Shown piece by piece: positions 7,265 to 19,507 of a stretch of 64,000 nt of DNA (position 1 is its first letter; each line of letters starts with the position of its first letter). Where the stretch lies: NCBI GenBank assembly GCA_013314735.1, contig JABUFD010000001.1:558001-622000 (forward strand), written 5' to 3'. A model generated the notes under the pieces. It searched no databases. It saw only the letters and a program-made list of their open reading frames with translations, and was not told the DNA's origin. The stretch is from Anaerolineae bacterium. GTDB lineage: Bacteria; Chloroflexota; Anaerolineae; Anaerolineales; Anaerolineaceae. Made by a program: the position numbers and the translations under genes.

Positions 7265-8509
7265 GTGGTAAGAGTACTCCATTTCGCTGATGCGCATATC
7301 GACATGGCCAATTTTGGAAAACGCAATCCGGAAACAGGATTGCCGTTTCGTGTCGAGGATTTCCTGAAAGCTTTGGATACCATTGTTAACCATGCGATTG
7401 AGAAAAGTGTTGACCTGGTTGTTTTTGCGGGAGATGCCTATAAGGATCGTACGCCCGTGCCAACCTTCCAGCGGGAATGGGGGAAGAGGATCATGCGGCT
7501 TTCACGAGCGGAAATTCCCACATTGCTGTTGGTGGGTAACCATGATACTTCACCCGCGCAGGGCAGGGCACACACCTTGCAGGAATTTGACACATTGGAT
7601 ATCCCCTTTGTCCGTGTGATCTCTCAACCGTGTCTGCTGACCCCGGATGACTTATGGGGGAGGCAAATCCAGGTGATCGGGTTGCCATGGATATCGAAAT
7701 CGAGGGTGGAAACGGCCCGTAAGAATTCAGGTAATGACGAACCGGAGGCGTTGGATGATGAGATCAGTACCAGCATTGGTGACTTGATGGAACATTTCCT
7801 AACCCAGGCTGATCCCAATATACCGCTGATGCTGACTGCGCATGCTTCGGTGCAAGGTGCGAAATACGGACGGGAACGGAATGTGATGCTGGGGAAAGAC
7901 CTCGTCATTTCTCGATCACTGGTGAGTGATCCCCGGATCGATTACAGCGCGCTGGGGCACATTCACAAACCTCAGAATTTGAACGAAAATGCCCATCCGC
8001 CGGTAATTTACCCCGGAAGCATTGAGCGGGTAGATTTTGGTGAAGCGGAAGATGATAAATTCTGTATCATCGCGGAGATCGAGCATGGTAGTACGCATGT
8101 GGAATGGATCCCGTTGAAAGGAAGGCGCTTTATTGACCGTTTTGTGAGAATAACCGCAGATGACATATACGTGACACAGAAAATGATCAACGCTCTCCCT
8201 CCGGAAGCAGAAATGGCAGAGGCTGTAGTCCGTCTTACGGTCCAATACCCGGAGGGATTTGAAACTCAGATTGATGAAACTGCTGTCCAGCAGGCTGCCG
8301 AAAGTTGTTTTGATTTCAAGTTTGTCAAACGTCCGCAGCTCGAGGCACGCAGCCGGTTGGGAGTTGATCAAAATCTTGCCAGTTATACCCCGCTGGAATT
8401 ATTGGGATTGTACCTGAAAACGAAAGACACGCCTGCCGAACAATTCGCTGCGCTGCTGGCGCTGGCAGAAGAAGTGTTTACGGCGGATGATGTGGCGGAG
8501 GATGTTTAG
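7265..8509 (+). CDS. sbcD: SbcD-like DNA repair exonuclease subunit
   Basis: This is the Mre11-type nuclease subunit of the SbcCD complex, which opens hairpins and trims blocked DNA ends. All five metallophosphoesterase motifs are seen: FADAHID (DxH), FAGDAYKD (GDxxxD), LVGNHD (GNHD), TAHASVQGA (H) and LGHIHKP (GHxH). The C-terminal 130 residues form the capping domain. The start is a GTG at 7265 preceded by AAAGGGA. The stop is followed directly by the ATG of a CNNM/CBS gene, and sbcC comes after that, so the nuclease and ATPase genes share one transcript but are split by a membrane-protein gene. Confidence 0.9.
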   Translation: MVRVLHFADAHIDMANFGKRNPETGLPFRVEDFLKALDTIVNHAIEKSVDLVVFAGDAYKDRTPVPTFQREWGKRIMRLSRAEIPTLLLVGNHDTSPAQGRAHTLQEFDTLDIPFVRVISQPCLLTPDDLWGRQIQVIGLPWISKSRVETARKNSGNDEPEALDDEISTSIGDLMEHFLTQADPNIPLMLTAHASVQGAKYGRERNVMLGKDLVISRSLVSDPRIDYSALGHIHKPQNLNENAHPPVIYPGSIERVDFGEAEDDKFCIIAEIEHGSTHVEWIPLKGRRFIDRFVRITADDIYVTQKMINALPPEAEMAEAVVRLTVQYPEGFETQIDETAVQQAAESCFDFKFVKRPQLEARSRLGVDQNLASYTPLELLGLYLKTKDTPAEQFAALLALAEEVFTADDVAEDV

Positions 8510-9856
8510 ATGTCAAGCCCAATTGCCCAGGTTGCCATCATTTTTGGCTTGATCGTGCTTAATGGGGTGTTTGCCATGGCGGAAATTGCCCTGGTTTCGG
8601 CGCGTAAGGGCCGCTTAAAACAAAAAGCAGACGACGGGGATCCTGCCGCGCAGTCAGTCCTGCGCTTGCAGGAAAATCCCAACCAGTTTTTGTCAACCGT
8701 GCAGATCGGAATATCTACGATCGGCATTTTATCTGGAGCACTTGGTTCAGCAACCCTGACCAGTGACCTTGCGTCTGTTCTGACGGGATGGGGGCTGGGG
8801 GCGGCTGCTTCTGAACAGGTTGCTTTTGTTATCATTGTACTGCTGACCACTTACTGCTCACTGGTGATTGGCGAATTAATTCCCAAGCGGTTGGGCATGC
8901 ACAATCCTGAGATCATCGCCCAACGAGTAGCTGCCCCGATGGGTTTCATTTCCAAAATCACCTCGCCGATCGTGAAGTTCCTGGGTTTTTCGACAGAACT
9001 GGGCTTGCGAATTTTAGGTGTAAAACCATCTACGGAACCGGACATTTCCGAGGAGGAAATCCGGATGATGCTCACCGAGGGAACCGAAGTGGGGGTATTT
9101 GAGGAGTCAGAACATGACCTGGTGGAAGGTGTGTTCCGGCTGGGCGACCGCCGTGTTGACATGATCGTTACACCCCGCACAGAATTAGAATGGCTTAACC
9201 TTGAAGATACCCTGGAAACATGGGATCAAGTGATTTTCAACACAAGGTTTAACCAGTTGCCGGTCGTGGAGGGCGAATTGGATCAGGTTATTGGCGTGAT
9301 CCGTACCCGTGATCTTCTGAAAAAACGGCTGACCGGTGAAAATTTTGATCCCCGAGAGATGATCCTTCCGGCGGTTTTCATCCCGGAAAGCATGCCTGCG
9401 GTGACCGCATTGAACTTGATCAAACAACAAAGCTCAAATATGGCCATGGTAATTGATGAGTTTGGAGGTTTGTTGGGGATCGTTACCCTGTTCGATATCA
9501 TGGAATCAATAATGGGCGATATTGCGGTGAGTGACGTACCGGGAGAGGGCTCTGTTGTTGAACGAACAGATGGTTCATGGCTGGTGGACGGCTTGTTGGC
9601 TGTGGACGAATTGAAAGAATTGTTATCTCTCAACCAACTCCCAGATGAATCGGCGTATGGCTATCAGACACTGGGGGGGATGATTATGGCACATATGGGG
9701 AAAATCCCACGAGTCGGGCAGCATGTGGAACTTGGTGATTACCGATTTGAAGTGGTCGATATGGATGGCCGCCGTGTTGATAAAGTGCTGGTCAGTCGGC
9801 ATGGAAACCCCTCAGGCTTGTCAGGAAGCACAGGAAAGGGTGGTACTTCAGCATGA
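8510..9856 (+). CDS. CNNM/CBS-domain membrane protein (HlyC/CorC family)
   Basis: This 448-residue protein has an N-terminal DUF21/CNNM transmembrane domain (three to four hydrophobic segments within about 1-150; signature AEIALVSARKGRL), a CBS pair (about 200-345, containing RFNQLPVVEG and FGGLLGIVTLFDIME), and the C-terminal CorC_HlyC domain (about 360-440, GYQTLGGMIMAHMGKIP). Family members are linked to Mg/Co transport or to sensing nucleotides through CBS domains. The ATG directly follows the sbcD stop, and the TGA overlaps the sbcC ATG (ATGA). Translation is therefore coupled to both SbcCD subunits, an odd neighbour for a transporter. Confidence 0.88.
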   Translation: MSSPIAQVAIIFGLIVLNGVFAMAEIALVSARKGRLKQKADDGDPAAQSVLRLQENPNQFLSTVQIGISTIGILSGALGSATLTSDLASVLTGWGLGAAASEQVAFVIIVLLTTYCSLVIGELIPKRLGMHNPEIIAQRVAAPMGFISKITSPIVKFLGFSTELGLRILGVKPSTEPDISEEEIRMMLTEGTEVGVFEESEHDLVEGVFRLGDRRVDMIVTPRTELEWLNLEDTLETWDQVIFNTRFNQLPVVEGELDQVIGVIRTRDLLKKRLTGENFDPREMILPAVFIPESMPAVTALNLIKQQSSNMAMVIDEFGGLLGIVTLFDIMESIMGDIAVSDVPGEGSVVERTDGSWLVDGLLAVDELKELLSLNQLPDESAYGYQTLGGMIMAHMGKIPRVGQHVELGDYRFEVVDMDGRRVDKVLVSRHGNPSGLSGSTGKGGTSA

Positions 9857-12423
9857 TACCGATCACGCTTGATCTGAAAGGTTTCCTTTCTTACCGTGAA
9901 GCTGTGCAATTGGACTTCACCCACTTCGATATGGCCTGCATCACCGGGCAGAACGGCGCAGGGAAATCATCATTACTCGATGCGATGACCTGGGCTTTAT
10001 TCGGCAAAGCGCGCAGTACGGATGATGACTTGATCCATATGCAGGAATCAGAGACCGAGGTCTGCCTGGTGTTTGATTATGAAGGGCAACGGTATGCGGT
10101 TACAAGGCAAAAAAAGCGTGGTGAATCAAAAACCATGCGGCTTGAAATATGGGGGGATGACAACCAGAAGTGGGTCAATTTCTCTGAAGCAACCATGACA
10201 GCTACCCAATCCAAGCTCGAACGTATCTTGCGTATGGATTATGACACGTTCATCAACGCCTCTTTCTTCCTGCAAGGAAAAGCTGACCATTTTGCCCAGC
10301 AGCGTCCGGCTGACCGGAAACAGACCCTGGCAAAAATCCTGGAACTGGAAATTTGGGATGAGTATCAGAAACGAACTGCAGCCTTCAGGAGGCAGCTGGA
10401 AACCCGCATGAATACCGTCAACACCCAGTTGGGATTGATTCGGGATGAACTCGCAAAAGAAAAAGACCTGGTTGAACGCCGTGATTTGTTGCAAATGAAG
10501 TTAGTTCAGTTGGAGGCAACAGCTCGGGCACAGGAAGAAGTCGTATTACAATTTCGGCGCCAACAGGAACAGGCTGGAAGACAGAAACAGCAAGTCGAGT
10601 TGTTGAGGCGGAATCTGGAAAACGCACAAAAGCGTGTCAACGATCTGACAGAATCGTTGCAACGATACCAGGCTGAACAAGAAGACCTCGTCCATTTGCT
10701 CGCGGATGAAGAACGTATTCGCGAGGGCTATTTAAAATGGCAGCGGGACCAGGCTGAATTGGAGTCTTATGATCAGATGGCCGGGCAGTTTGAACAAATC
10801 CGCGCAGAACGTGAAGCCCCGTACCAGATCCTGACTGGGGAGGAGGCGAAACTACAGGCACAATGTCAACAATTACAGGCCCAGGCTGAAAAAATTTCGG
10901 AGATGAGGAATAATCTCACCCAACTTCAGACCAAACTGGCAGACACTGAAGAAGAAGAAATGGCAGTGGAAGCCGAATGTTCCCGGTATGTTGTTCTCGA
11001 AGAGCAATTTGATGATCTGGGTGTTTCCATCCGGCAGGTTGAAATGGAACGTTCTCGCATGCTCCGTGATATGCAAACCCTGAAGGAACGTATTGCCAGG
11101 CTGGAATCGGTGGAATCGGCGGAATGCCCGACCTGTGGTCAACCATTAACGAAAGAACACCGCGCCGATATCCTCCGCGAGATGAAAGTACAGGGACAGG
11201 CGCTGCGCGACCAATTCGAGACGGGCAGTGCAGACCTGGATGCTCGAAAGATGGAATACCAATCGTTGGATGCGGAAATTAAAAGACTGCACCGCCTGGA
11301 AAAGGACCAGTTGCTCAAGGGGTTGCGGCCCAAACTGGATTCTCTGCGCCTGACGATCGGCAATCTGACGCGTGACATTGAAGAATGGGAACATACTGGC
11401 CAGCCATCACTGGTAACCATTGAACAAGCCTTGCAAACGGGTACATTCGCAATGGAGGCGCGCCAGGTGCTGGACGATATCGACCAACGGCTGCGGGAAT
11501 TGGGATATGATGCCCGTGCACATGATCAAATGCGCCAACGAGTGCGTGCAGGAAGGGAGATTCAACAAACATGGGAATCTCTCGGAAAAGCACGAGCGAC
11601 ACTCGAAACGGTGCAGCGGATGATGATCGAACAACAAAGCCAACTCACAGCAGCCGGCATGGAATTGGAAACCGCAAAGCTGGCGTATGATACCGCGCAG
11701 GACCAATACGAGGCCTTGTTGCAGGGGGCAAATGGATTCACGGAAGCCAACCGGCAATGGCTGGAGATGCGCAATGCTGTCAGCCAGACCAGCCGTGAAC
11801 TTGGCGGTGCGGAACAACAGGTAAACTCGCTGCAGGGGTATCGTGACCAACAAACGATGTATGCCAACGAAAAACAAACTCTCTCATCGAAAATAGACCT
11901 TTACCGCCAGTTGGAAGATGCTTTCAGTAAGAATGGTATCCAGGCATTGATGATTGAACAGGCTATTCCTGAAATAGAGGAACAGGCCAACGACCTCCTA
12001 AGCCGGTTGTCATCCACCGGTATGATGGTTCAATTCAGAACACAGGAAGCTTACAAAGATAAGCGGCGCACCGACATGCGGGAAACACTCGATATTGTGA
12101 TCAGTGACAATGCTGGCGTCCGCAGTTATGAAATGTACAGCGGTGGCGAAGCCTTCCGGGTGAATTTTGCCATTCGGCTGGCATTGTCGCGCATGCTGGC
12201 AGGGCGTTCAGGCGCGCGGCTGCAAACATTGGTGATCGATGAGGGATTTGGCAGCCAGGATGCTGAAGGGGTCCAGCGTTTGGTTGAAGCCATCAATGCG
12301 ATCCAGGAGGATTTTTCCAAGATTCTCGTGATCACACACATGGAAACATTGAAGGAGTCATTCCCGGCGCAAATCGAGGTGGTGAAAACCCCGTCTGGTT
12401 CCCAGTTCCAGGTATTGGTATAA
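9853..12423 (+). CDS. sbcC: SbcC-like SMC-family ATPase
   Basis: This is the Rad50-type partner of SbcD. Features are the Walker A GQNGAGKSS (residues 32-40), the Q-loop region FFLQGKADHFAQ, two long coiled coils, and a zinc hook CPTCGQ (cysteines 425 and 428) in the middle. The C-terminal ABC signature YSGGEAFRVNFAI lies at about 761-773, followed by the Walker B/D-loop LVIDEGFGSQDAEG near 796. At 856 residues it is shorter than E. coli SbcC (about 1,050), the coils being shorter. It starts in an ATGA overlap with the CNNM gene, which suggests balanced expression with sbcD. Confidence 0.92.
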   Translation: MIPITLDLKGFLSYREAVQLDFTHFDMACITGQNGAGKSSLLDAMTWALFGKARSTDDDLIHMQESETEVCLVFDYEGQRYAVTRQKKRGESKTMRLEIWGDDNQKWVNFSEATMTATQSKLERILRMDYDTFINASFFLQGKADHFAQQRPADRKQTLAKILELEIWDEYQKRTAAFRRQLETRMNTVNTQLGLIRDELAKEKDLVERRDLLQMKLVQLEATARAQEEVVLQFRRQQEQAGRQKQQVELLRRNLENAQKRVNDLTESLQRYQAEQEDLVHLLADEERIREGYLKWQRDQAELESYDQMAGQFEQIRAEREAPYQILTGEEAKLQAQCQQLQAQAEKISEMRNNLTQLQTKLADTEEEEMAVEAECSRYVVLEEQFDDLGVSIRQVEMERSRMLRDMQTLKERIARLESVESAECPTCGQPLTKEHRADILREMKVQGQALRDQFETGSADLDARKMEYQSLDAEIKRLHRLEKDQLLKGLRPKLDSLRLTIGNLTRDIEEWEHTGQPSLVTIEQALQTGTFAMEARQVLDDIDQRLRELGYDARAHDQMRQRVRAGREIQQTWESLGKARATLETVQRMMIEQQSQLTAAGMELETAKLAYDTAQDQYEALLQGANGFTEANRQWLEMRNAVSQTSRELGGAEQQVNSLQGYRDQQTMYANEKQTLSSKIDLYRQLEDAFSKNGIQALMIEQAIPEIEEQANDLLSRLSSTGMMVQFRTQEAYKDKRRTDMRETLDIVISDNAGVRSYEMYSGGEAFRVNFAIRLALSRMLAGRSGARLQTLVIDEGFGSQDAEGVQRLVEAINAIQEDFSKILVITHMETLKESFPAQIEVVKTPSGSQFQVLV

Positions 12424-15943: not shown

Positions 15944-17191
15944 ATGCCGATCAACCATCTGGAAATTCGCCCGCAGGTACAGCGCCTGGCAGCAGAAGCT
16001 GCCCGTTCCATCAAAGAGTCGGTAAGTTTCCTGGCAGAGCTGCGGGCACAACTGGCATCCCTACAGGATCAGGTGGATACCGTTGATCAGCATATCAAGT
16101 TGGCAGAGGAGAAATTGCCCATGCTGCGCTGTGCAGCCCCTGTTATGCCGGGGGACAGGTTGTTCACGGTAGTTCCCGCACCTGACCAGAACAAACCACT
16201 GCCCGATATGATCCTGCTTGCCTCAGATGGATCGCAGATCAATCCTTCGCGGCATGATGCGGTGGAAGTGGGTTTGATTAACCTGGGGTTGATCCGCATG
16301 CTGCCGGGAACGGGAAGAACACCGGATGTGGTAACCCGCAGCCGTCTGTTGTACCCGGGAATGGAAGGCATTCTGGATGATTCCCTCTCCGAAGATCTCG
16401 TGGCAATCATGCGGGATGTGGAAGAGCGCAAGTTCCTCGCTGAAACAGCAGCAGCGGCTGTGCATGAACTGGCTGGTGATTATGCGGGAGAAATTTTGCC
16501 AGTGGTTGCCTGTACGGATGGCCCATTGGAATTGTTTCGCGAACCGCGCGGCGGAGAGCAACAACGTAAGCGCTTCGACCAGTACCTTGAAGCCCTCAAT
16601 GGAATGGCGAAAATTGGGGCGATTCCCGCTGGTTATGTTGACAAACCCCGTGCCAACCTGTTGGTTCGGATGCTGGAAGTGATGACCAGCAAGCCGGCGG
16701 ATCTGGGTGAAGCAGGGACGGAGCGAAAATACCCAGGGGTGGACGATACCACACTGTTGCAGCCCTGGCTGGAACCGGGTTGCCGTACCAATGTCTTTCG
16801 GCTGGTATCCCGTTCTGCCACCCAATTTTCTCAAAAGGCTGTCAAACTGACATTGTACTTTTTCTATCTTAATGTCGGTTACCTTCTCCCCTCAGGTGAA
16901 AGGCGCGACCTGTATGCACGCGTCGAGGTGCCTGGCTGGGTGGCCCACAATCCCGCACAGTTGTCTTTGCTGCATCAGGTATTGCTTGATCAGTGCCGGA
17001 TATTGGGAACAAACCCCTACCCCTATGTCCTGCATCGTGCCCATGAGATCGCCCTCGTGCAACTACAGGAGAAGGAGGAGTTAATGCGGATGGTGATGGC
17101 TGAGTTGTTGAGCCTGGGATTACCGGTTCCAGCAGCATCGATGAAAGGTGAGAACAAAGCTGTCGGGTACAACCACGGGAGGTCAAGATGA
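15944..17191 (+). CDS. nurA: NurA-domain 5'-3' nuclease
   Basis: NurA is an RNase H-like nuclease that works with the HerA translocase to resect DNA ends. This 415-residue protein has an N-terminal coiled coil (about 10-60), then the first metal-binding motif ASDGSQI (Asp95), the second acidic motif VVACTDGPLELF (about 187-198) and the C-terminal family block YPYVLHRAHEIALV near 360-375. The ATG has a strong AGGAGG upstream. It overlaps the next gene by ATGA, and herA follows, which strongly supports the assignment. HerA-NurA pairs are best known from archaea and also occur in some deep-branching bacteria. Confidence 0.87.
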   Translation: MPINHLEIRPQVQRLAAEAARSIKESVSFLAELRAQLASLQDQVDTVDQHIKLAEEKLPMLRCAAPVMPGDRLFTVVPAPDQNKPLPDMILLASDGSQINPSRHDAVEVGLINLGLIRMLPGTGRTPDVVTRSRLLYPGMEGILDDSLSEDLVAIMRDVEERKFLAETAAAAVHELAGDYAGEILPVVACTDGPLELFREPRGGEQQRKRFDQYLEALNGMAKIGAIPAGYVDKPRANLLVRMLEVMTSKPADLGEAGTERKYPGVDDTTLLQPWLEPGCRTNVFRLVSRSATQFSQKAVKLTLYFFYLNVGYLLPSGERRDLYARVEVPGWVAHNPAQLSLLHQVLLDQCRILGTNPYPYVLHRAHEIALVQLQEKEELMRMVMAELLSLGLPVPAASMKGENKAVGYNHGRSR

Positions 17192-17805
17192 TTGAAATCG
17201 GCAGACTGTTAAGGAGCAGTATCACCGGGTGTGTGTTCGGTACCTGGGTGGATCAAGTGCGTGCTCCTTACCTGGGGGGGATGGTCAGGATCGCCCTTGA
17301 TGAGGATACTTGTATCATTGGCATTGTTTATGATATACAGGTGGCAGATGACGGACTCGTACAACAAATTCTCAGTGCCCAGTCGATCCGTCCGGAGATC
17401 ATTGAAGACAATCGCCGCAACCGGAATGTACCGGTGGAGATCAGTGTGTTGTTCATTGGTTATGAAGATCGACAGACAATCTCGCATTTGCTTCCCCCGC
17501 GTCCACCGCTCTCTCTGGATGAGGTACATGCCTGCAGCAGCCAGGAGATGGATCGTTTCACCAGGCATGGGTTGGGATACTTCCGCCACATCCTGCGTGA
17601 CCCGCTCCTGACGGCGGGAGAAATTCTGGCCGTGCATTTGAAAGACCTTGCAAGGATCAAAGACTGCGCATGGTTGCGGTCCGCTGTGCAGGAATTGATC
17701 ACCCTGCTGCGGGATGATTACCCGCGCCTGATGGCATTGATGAGTGCGCTGGCAGACGCCGGACTAAATTTGCGGCTGGATGCAAACGGTGAACACGGAG
17801 GATAG
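17188..17805 (+). CDS. Stand-alone HAS-barrel-like protein between nurA and herA
   Basis: This is a 205-residue protein with no Walker motifs. Its N-terminal half looks like the HAS barrel found at the front of HerA and rotary ATPases: EIGRLLRSSITGCVFGTW, then MVRIALDEDTCIIGIVYDIQV, then VEISVLFIGY and the LPPRPPLSLDEVHACS segment that closes such barrels. The C-terminal half (about 115-200) is helical and unfamiliar. The downstream HerA has its own N-terminal barrel, so this is an additional copy rather than a split HerA. It overlaps nurA by ATGA and stops one base before the herA ATG. A role as adaptor between nuclease and translocase is inference. Confidence 0.65.
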   Translation: MIEIGRLLRSSITGCVFGTWVDQVRAPYLGGMVRIALDEDTCIIGIVYDIQVADDGLVQQILSAQSIRPEIIEDNRRNRNVPVEISVLFIGYEDRQTISHLLPPRPPLSLDEVHACSSQEMDRFTRHGLGYFRHILRDPLLTAGEILAVHLKDLARIKDCAWLRSAVQELITLLRDDYPRLMALMSALADAGLNLRLDANGEHGG

Positions 17806-17806
17806 C

Positions 17807-19507
17807 ATGGACCTGGAGAAAAGCATTGGCTACATCGTCGGCGGCTCCTTGCGGGGCAATCTGCGCGCGCGCCTGACGCGGAAACCAGAGGAGGTGCAGG
17901 AAGGCAGTTTTGTGGTGATTGATGGTGTACCCTGGATTTTTTACGGGCTGGTAACTGATTTGCAGCTGGGTTCAACCGACCCTCGATTTGCGGATGAATA
18001 CCTCGAATCCCGCATTGACCTGGACCTGGCGAATATGCTCCAGGGGCAAACCCTGTACACAAACCTGGAAGTGATGCCGGTTTTGATGCAGGAAACCTAT
18101 CCCGAAGGGAGCTTGCCGACGGGGGCAGAAGCCACTGCTCCCGGTCCGGTGAAAACGATTCCCCAACACCACACACCGCTGCGGCTGGCAGAGGCGAATG
18201 ATATTGAAGCTATTTTTGGCAGTCCACAAGATCCCGGCAATTTTGTCGTGGGAAGCACGCGAGAGCAAGGACATCCGATTTGCATTGACCTGAACAAATT
18301 TGTCAAGCGTTCCTCTGGCATCTTTGGCGCAACCGGTACCGGGAAATCGTTCCTGACCCGGATGATCCTGGCTGGTCTGGTGAACTACAATGCAGCCTCG
18401 GTGCTGGTGTTTGACATGCACAATGAGTATGCCTACACCGATATTGATGCCGATAAAGGCAACCAGGTGTACGGTCTATATGATAAATTCGGTGAAAAAG
18501 TACAGGTGGTCGGGCTGGGAGCCGATGCCACCATCCACGGCAAGAAACCCATCAGCCTGGAAATCCGCGAAAGTGATATTCAACCGGAAGATATTCTCTT
18601 GCTGACCAAGGAGTTGAACCTGCGGGAAACCACCGAAACCACGCTTTCAGCGCTGGTAACCAGCTTTGGGCGTGAGGAGTGGTACAGCAAATTCAAGGCC
18701 ATGAAGCCCGGTGAGAAAATTGTGGCAGCAGATGAGAACGGCGAGAAAACCATCTTTGCTCCCAGCAGTGTGGAAGGATGGGCTGACAGTGTGGGAGTCA
18801 ATCGTACTGCTGCGCTTGGTCTGCACAGTAAGCTGCGGCGGTTGTTTGACCAGAACTATATCAAACCTGCTGACCGGATTGCATCGGATGGCTTATCGGT
18901 AATGATCGATAACCTGAAGAACAAGCGGCATGTGGTGTTGTCTTTTGGGAAATATGAGAATGACCTGGATTACCTGCTGGTGACCAACCTGATCACACGG
19001 CGAATACGGGAGCAATGGGTGGAGCAATCGGAAAAATTCCGTACAGACCGCACCAAATTTCCTGAGCCACGCCCGTTGGTGATTGTGATTGAAGAAGCGC
19101 ATAAACTGTTGAGCGCAGAGATGGGATCCCAGACCATTTTCAGTACCATCGCGCGTGAACTGCGCAAGTATTTTGTGACCCTCCTGGTGGTCGATCAACG
19201 GCCTTCTCAAATTTATGATGAAGTGATGTCGCAGCTCGGTACGCGAATTTCCGGTTGGCTGGGCGATGATGCCGACATCAGTGCGGTCCTTTCCGGATTG
19301 GCGAGTAAAGACCAGCTGCGCGGGATGCTTTCGCACCTGCAAGAAAAAGAGGAGGTGCTGCTGCTGGGGTGGGGGGTTCCGATGCCGTTGCCGGTGCGTT
19401 CCCGCCGCTACGATGATGATTTCTGGCAGGAACTGCTGGGGAGCAAGGACCGGAAACAAGGCACGAAAAAGTCAGAAAGTGACCTGATCAACTTGCTGGG
19501 ATATTAA
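17807..19507 (+). CDS. herA: HerA-type DNA translocase ATPase
   Basis: This FtsK-HerA superfamily hexameric ATPase pumps DNA for end resection. The 566-residue protein has an N-terminal HAS barrel (about 1-105), the Walker A GATGTGKS (174-181), the Walker B/glutamate LVIVIEEAHK (about 420-430), the sensor region LLVVDQRPSQI, and a C-terminal arm. I start at the ATG at 17807, which has CGGAGGATAGC directly upstream; an in-frame start at 17780 lies inside the previous gene. Genes nurA, HAS-barrel and herA overlap or touch, so they should form one operon under the TATAAT near 15911. Confidence 0.9.
   Translation: MDLEKSIGYIVGGSLRGNLRARLTRKPEEVQEGSFVVIDGVPWIFYGLVTDLQLGSTDPRFADEYLESRIDLDLANMLQGQTLYTNLEVMPVLMQETYPEGSLPTGAEATAPGPVKTIPQHHTPLRLAEANDIEAIFGSPQDPGNFVVGSTREQGHPICIDLNKFVKRSSGIFGATGTGKSFLTRMILAGLVNYNAASVLVFDMHNEYAYTDIDADKGNQVYGLYDKFGEKVQVVGLGADATIHGKKPISLEIRESDIQPEDILLLTKELNLRETTETTLSALVTSFGREEWYSKFKAMKPGEKIVAADENGEKTIFAPSSVEGWADSVGVNRTAALGLHSKLRRLFDQNYIKPADRIASDGLSVMIDNLKNKRHVVLSFGKYENDLDYLLVTNLITRRIREQWVEQSEKFRTDRTKFPEPRPLVIVIEEAHKLLSAEMGSQTIFSTIARELRKYFVTLLVVDQRPSQIYDEVMSQLGTRISGWLGDDADISAVLSGLASKDQLRGMLSHLQEKEEVLLLGWGVPMPLPVRSRRYDDDFWQELLGSKDRKQGTKKSESDLINLLGY

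Follow-up and report, generated by a model that had tools for sequence, protein, structure and literature searches.

A third gene between nurA and herA

We analysed a window of 64,000 nucleotides from an Anaerolineae bacterium (Chloroflexota; GenBank assembly GCA_013314735.1, contig JABUFD010000001.1, positions 558,001–622,000), in which the gene of a 205-residue protein, here named MID, lies between the genes of the nuclease NurA and the ATPase/translocase HerA, the two known parts of a machine that trims DNA ends. The three genes are arranged head to tail on the plus strand. The stop codon of nurA lies within an ATGA common to the start of MID, and the herA start codon (ATG 17807) is located one base past the MID stop with GGAGG directly upstream; an alternative longer herA frame opens at ATG 17780. 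Because the identical order recurs across the phylum, the arrangement is well beyond chance. The locus comprises the following features:

15944–17191, plus strand: nurA, nuclease of 415 amino acids (PF09376 NurA, E = 7.9e-17, residues 92–370)
17188–17805, plus strand: middle gene (MID), open reading frame of 205 amino acids, ATGA overlap with nurA
17191–17463, plus strand: N-terminal part of MID, HAS-barrel-like (approximately residues 2–92; family-level PF09378 matches and hhalign alignment to HerA)
17485–17565, plus strand: HerA-like linker of MID after the barrel (approximately residues 100–126; hhalign alignment to the HerA linker, conserved among close relatives)
17566–17802, plus strand: helical C-terminal part of MID (approximately residues 127–205; helices in a low-confidence model)
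17807–19507, plus strand: herA, ATPase/translocase of 566 amino acids (PF01935, E = 4.9e-30)
17825–18016, plus strand: HAS barrel of HerA itself (residues 7–70; PF09378, E = 2.3e-6)

The window NurA clears the PF09376 cut-off (62 versus 21 bits) and is the one match to this family in its genome. HerA clears the cut-offs of PF01935 (105.7 versus 23.2 bits) and of the HAS-barrel family PF09378 (28 versus 25.2 bits), is the one PF09378 match in the genome, and is similar to the solved HerA 4d2i (phmmer, E = 2.1e-16) and to several PADLOC HerA models (best E = 7.8e-33); neither NurA nor MID of the window matched a PADLOC model at E = 1. A previous reading of these letters without database searches (the sequence-only reading) had described the three genes as overlapping or touching and HerA as keeping its own barrel, and both descriptions were borne out by the ATGA overlap, the one-base gap and the PF09378 match in HerA.

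Co-occurrence and gene order across Chloroflexota

In the class, a single-sequence search detected MID relatives in 184 of 298 genomes. A NurA match was present at 28 and a HerA match at 22 of 31 distinct MID loci, most with flanks of about 1.5 kb (34 loci minus two from the own genome, L001 and L005, and the repeated contig L017). A 24-row MID profile built without regard to NurA (A1) identified MID in 145 of 400 Chloroflexota genomes, and all but one of these (144/145) carry NurA, which was found with PF09376 in 236 of the same 400 genomes. Among 20 loci sampled from the 92 genomes that have NurA but no A1 match, 12 carry a divergent MID at most 1 kb away from nurA and eight show none. With a 44-row profile of A1-type plus divergent and other distant members (A3), MID was recovered from 221 genomes, and a HerA profile (A4) recovered HerA from 225 at 1e-30 or better. 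All three proteins were found in 212 of the 400 genomes and none was detected in 154; the 34 mixed genomes had NurA only (n = 15), HerA only (n = 6), NurA and MID (n = 5), NurA and HerA (n = 4), MID and HerA (n = 3), or MID only (n = 1). Some members of A3 were taken from loci with NurA and so match by design; the 144 of 145 A1-positive genomes are independent of them.

Five HerA matches were weak (G037, G387, G485, G463, and G309; 2e-31 to 8e-54), and three of the six HerA-only genomes are among them. In the MID-only genome, G330, the match falls in a frame of 494 residues and the surrounding stretch gave no match to NurA or HerA; this genome is probably a false positive that is still included in the counts. 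Rechecking of 13 genomes with weak or odd MID matches showed MID directly upstream of a HerA frame in eleven, with nurA in the 1.5-kb flank of one locus only (L143); the MID of G435 is a fragment without HerA in the 1.8 kb available. Genome G337 has two such loci, a MID-herA pair at L131 and a nurA-MID-herA trio at L143.

Linkage was counted among genomes with both places listed and was defined as a location within 3 kb on one strand. NurA and MID are linked in 71 of 90 such genomes, with NurA upstream in all 71, and MID and HerA in 89 of 144, with HerA downstream in all 89. The 81 genomes with three listed places divide into 30 with all genes linked, 32 with NurA-MID linkage only, six with MID-HerA linkage only, and 13 with neither, the unlinked classes being inflated by fragmented assemblies. 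NurA and MID are 4.8 kb apart in G430, one of the 13 unlinked genomes, and the single 5.8-Mb contig of G444, another of the 13, has MID, NurA, and HerA at 0.74, 1.82, and 2.09 Mb, respectively. Other genes adjoin nurA in place of MID and herA at two loci of a large-genome family (L069 and L073, family f76), with frames that we take to be zinc-finger-like (CpXC-like), MoaB/Mog-like, and WD40-like. The conservation that the sequence-only reading had proposed to survey across Chloroflexota was found: MID is common next to nurA and/or herA and occurs together with both, and the trio spans much of the phylum, not just close relatives, and reaches haloarchaeal plasmids.

Relationship of MID to the N-terminal part of HerA

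On its own, the window MID matched no entry of Pfam, NCBIfam, PADLOC, or the PDB sequences significantly; matches to FMR1 (E = 0.99) and NinF (E = 0.25) were taken as chance, and the Pfam scan of its 205 amino acids gave no ATPase-domain match. PF09378 matched 19 of the 44 A3 members at E up to 10 (best E = 1.4e-15). Of ten members run singly, seven matched this family at E up to 1, including five at 0.003–0.009 and one at 0.2, and only the MID of L090 exceeded the curated cut-off (E = 1.7e-7; barrel residues 4–101). Profile–profile alignment with hhalign related A3 to the full HerA profile A4 at 81.5% (E = 1.1e-5) over barrel and linker, where the MID linker aligns with the P-x-H..V..A...D linker of HerA, and to the N-termini of type-1 HerA at 71% (E = 3.6e-5), as compared to 0.2% for the control alignment with NurA. 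The best match of A3 among PDB sequences was to residues 7–139 of TdpA, a further HerA-like ATPase (E = 0.094). Searches of the 44 members against PADLOC and PHROGs gave nothing better than 0.009, and those against NCBIfam gave single-member matches (best 0.033). The C-terminal part has five residues that are invariant in A1 (R133, H150, E169, L173, and L181).

We distinguished a second type of MID and HerA (type 2), which was assigned by visual inspection of the HerA and MID sequences, with NurA not used. Alignment of one MID type with the other by hhalign shows them to be related (96%, E = 4.2e-9). Separation of the HerA barrel onto another gene was considered as the origin of MID; in the window and at the type-1 loci HerA keeps its own barrel, and the idea was rejected there. 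We are less sure of this rejection for type 2, in which HerA has an N-terminal region of like size that matches PF09378 in six of 13 sequences at E up to 10 (best 0.003) and aligns with the type-1 N-termini at 25% in hhalign.

Two AlphaFold models of MID, built from four sequences, were of a confidence too low for them to serve as evidence by themselves. In a Foldseek search of the N-terminal part of the model against 350,542 chains, ranks 1–34 were all HerA entries, as judged by title, length, and sequence listing, with probabilities of 0.51–1.00 and a best E-value of 0.008; with the full-length model, ranks 1–5 were HerA at E = 0.087 or worse, followed by mixed entries. We read MID as a protein with a HerA-like front end, consisting of a putative HAS barrel and linker, followed by a helical tail and no motor. 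The barrel that the sequence-only reading had seen in the middle protein is detectable at the family level (19/44) and not in the window protein alone, and its picture of an extra barrel protein holds for the barrel and falls short for the remainder, as MID also has a linker and a conserved helical C-terminus. A fold other than the HAS barrel, on which that reading would have failed, was not found: family members match PF09378, and the top Foldseek entries of the low-confidence model are HerA, although LSm folds come within 1 VIA Z of HerA.

Solved NurA-HerA complexes have six HAS domains that form a crown holding the NurA dimer, and the T. kodakarensis HerA contacts NurA by the HAS alpha-1 helices and the loops preceding them (PMC9960219, PMC12977600). 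Going by strand order, an insert in the MID barrel would be the counterpart of HAS alpha-1; its residues D55, D74, R76, and R79 are invariant in 24 close relatives.

Type-2 trios on haloarchaeal plasmids

Outside Chloroflexota, the searches covered plasmids, phages, and viral contigs only. Plasmids were queried with the MIDs of L119, L072, and L126 and with the window NurA. The type-2 MID of L072 matched four haloarchaeal plasmids at 27–35% identity (E = 1e-23 to 3e-10), on which the MIDs are annotated as 'hypothetical protein', and the MID of L126 matched the same four. The window NurA matched one of these plasmids (E = 0.04). There was no match of the L119 MID among plasmids, of the L126 MID among phages, or of the A1 or L126 MID among viral contigs.

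Three of the plasmids (L125–L127) encode, in contiguous order, a metallophosphoesterase, an SMC ATPase, NurA, MID, and HerA. Pfam matches at L126 support an Mre11-like and a Rad50-like identity of the first two proteins (Metallophos, E = 1.1e-11; AAA_23, E = 2.2e-19; Rad50 zinc hook below the cut-off). This haloarchaeal set is possibly a mobile repair or defence cassette. The record of the fourth plasmid starts with the end of a NurA-like frame, followed by annotated MID and HerA. A DEAD/DEAH helicase gene precedes the set at L125 and at L127, and at L126 this place is taken by a gene of the phospholipase D family.

Quick trees were calculated for MID, HerA, and NurA with 49, 49, and 48 rows, of which 13, 13, and 12, respectively, were type 2 (nine from Chloroflexota and four, for NurA three, from haloarchaea; the repeat L017 and the NurA fragment L128 were dropped). 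The type-2 set forms one side of a branch with a Shimodaira–Hasegawa-like approximate likelihood ratio test (SH-aLRT) support of 100 in all three trees, the HerA tree carrying a warning of long branches. This concordant split is in line with the three genes having been inherited or transferred together.

Putative role of MID in the NurA-HerA machine

We propose, with a probability of roughly 0.6, that in Chloroflexota, and on some haloarchaeal plasmids, MID is an obligate third component of the NurA-HerA machine. Genomic linkage suggests that MID quite probably belongs physically to the NurA-HerA complex, while its location at the face between HerA and NurA is about an even call; MID may couple, gate, or load there. 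In the proposed mechanism, the HerA hexamer would pump double-stranded DNA, the MID barrel would dock on NurA, on the HAS crown of HerA, or on both, and the helical domain would shape how the NurA dimer is held or activated. The family-level PF09378 matches and the co-occurrence support the suggestion of the sequence-only reading that an extra barrel protein makes this a variant of the known machine; the roles named there, an adaptor, a stoichiometry changer, or a loading factor, would be candidates.

Several results weigh against this proposal. The window MID had no PF09378 match at E up to 10, and none of 14 type-2 MIDs matched this family. The hhalign comparison with HerA was weak for a profile of close MID relatives (3.7%) and for type-2 MID against type-2 HerA (3.6%), and A3 aligned with type-2 HerA N-termini at 15.2% over the last strand and linker only. 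The two structural models have mean confidences (predicted local distance difference test, pLDDT) of 48.7 and 52.3, and in VIA Z the MID model reached at most 5.8 for HerA, tied with LSm folds at 5.2. MID was not detected with A3 in 19 genomes with NurA, four of which also have HerA, and a repeated search of 25 NurA or HerA genomes without MID, using a type-2 profile and run without a positive control, yielded none (0/25). The co-occurrence counts are moreover not independent, as the genomes are related and some are incomplete, and thresholds differ between profiles. Finally, the MID insert had a mean entropy of 1.09 as compared to 1.06 in the rest of the N-terminal part, and HerA's own insert was somewhat more conserved than its surroundings (0.92 versus 1.05; 19 loci).

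With the MID insert as variable as its surroundings and the HerA insert kept, MID need not have replaced HerA in docking; a takeover of NurA docking by MID was therefore not supported by insert conservation. If MID is at the interface, it probably adds to the contact made by HerA rather than replacing it.

Alternative roles

Genes for putative Mre11-like and Rad50-like proteins are located upstream of nurA in the window, on the same strand, and are separated by a membrane protein gene:

7265–8509, plus strand: mre11/sbcD-like phosphoesterase (PF00149, E = 3.9e-14), possible partner by proximity
8510–9856: CNNM/CorC-type membrane protein gene, between the mre11/sbcD-like and rad50/sbcC-like genes
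9853–12423, plus strand: rad50/sbcC-like ATPase (PF13476, E = 1.9e-17; Rad50 zinc hook, E = 4.1e-7), possible partner

These neighbours, together with the metallophosphoesterase and SMC genes preceding nurA on three haloarchaeal plasmids and upstream matches to mre11 and rad50 in L083 and to rad50 in L066, would suit a MID that acts outside the working complex, as a transient loader or recruiter linking NurA-HerA to Mre11-Rad50 or to DNA ends. We regard this as unlikely, given that tblastn searches with the window Mre11 and Rad50 (1e-6) gave matches at four loci only (five matches) in the available flanks; the haloarchaeal loci were not among them, and the identity of their genes hence rests on annotation and Pfam. 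Equally doubtful is an arrangement in which MID barrels join those of HerA in a mixed or second ring, changing the stoichiometry or opening the ring. The homology of MID to the HerA barrel and linker speaks for it, as does the position of MID directly before herA in 11 of the 13 rechecked genomes, with nurA in the 1.5-kb flank of one locus, and alpha and beta barrels likewise share the crown of ATP synthase. Against a mixed ring, a stoichiometry of 2:6 is given for the NurA-HerA complexes of Deinococcus and archaea (PMC9960219).

The same source, in its accessible part, describes the Deinococcus complex without a third protein, which argues against MID being an inhibitor or safety clamp that keeps NurA inactive as long as no DNA has entered the channel of HerA; the location of the MID gene between the nuclease and motor genes, overlapping nurA, would be in line with such a clamp, which we nevertheless consider improbable. 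Least probable is that MID merely adjoins the two genes and plays no part in the machine. Adjacency alone may be historical, but the co-occurrence persists where the genes are unlinked, 212 and 154 of the 400 genomes have all or none of the three proteins as compared to 34 mixed ones, and the deep split is concordant in three trees.

Comparison with known systems

A NurA nuclease and a HerA ATPase with HAS barrel and RecA-like domain are common to the locus described here and to the systems of Deinococcus radiodurans and archaea (PMC9960219, PMC12977600). The latter are NurA2-HerA6 assemblies for which the accessible text describes no third protein, whereas a third protein of the HAS-barrel type is encoded here. 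The mutual dependence of NurA and HerA is still debated (PMC12977600). Should a three-part machine prove to be the rule in much of the phylum and for archaeal plasmids, the view of a two-protein machine, drawn from Deinococcus and thermophilic archaea, would be incomplete. It is a balanced guess that a large share of NurA-HerA machines outside model organisms have three components, the third being an obligatory, ATPase-less HerA paralogue that would adapt or gate NurA on the HerA crown and that occurs in two old lineages crossing between bacteria and archaea as a unit. A third NurA-HerA gene was not found in the open-licence literature among the matches listed; an earlier mention in the FtsK-HerA survey (Iyer 2004) is possible.

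The archaeal mre11-rad50-nurA-herA operon (PMC7776575, citing Constantinesco) has the same four kinds of genes, which in the window lie within 12.2 kb and are contiguous on the three haloarchaeal plasmids; unlike this four-gene operon, the sets described here have five genes, with MID between nurA and herA. In the four-gene tdtA operon of Thermus, the gene of a HerA/FtsK-family ATPase likewise directly follows that of a NurA-like nuclease, but the operon is described in connection with DNA donation by an integrative element and with a restriction enzyme, and the part of the article available mentions no MID-like gene (PMC5365140). TdpA (8wet) and anti-phage HerA proteins with SIR2, DUF4297, or other partners resemble MID in HAS barrel and linker; these are full ATPases, whereas MID has no ATPase domain and its members fit PADLOC models at 0.009 at best. 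A HAS-barrel-like domain is also reported for the BREX helicase BrxHI (PMC12839542), and such barrels are accordingly already known outside HerA ATPases.

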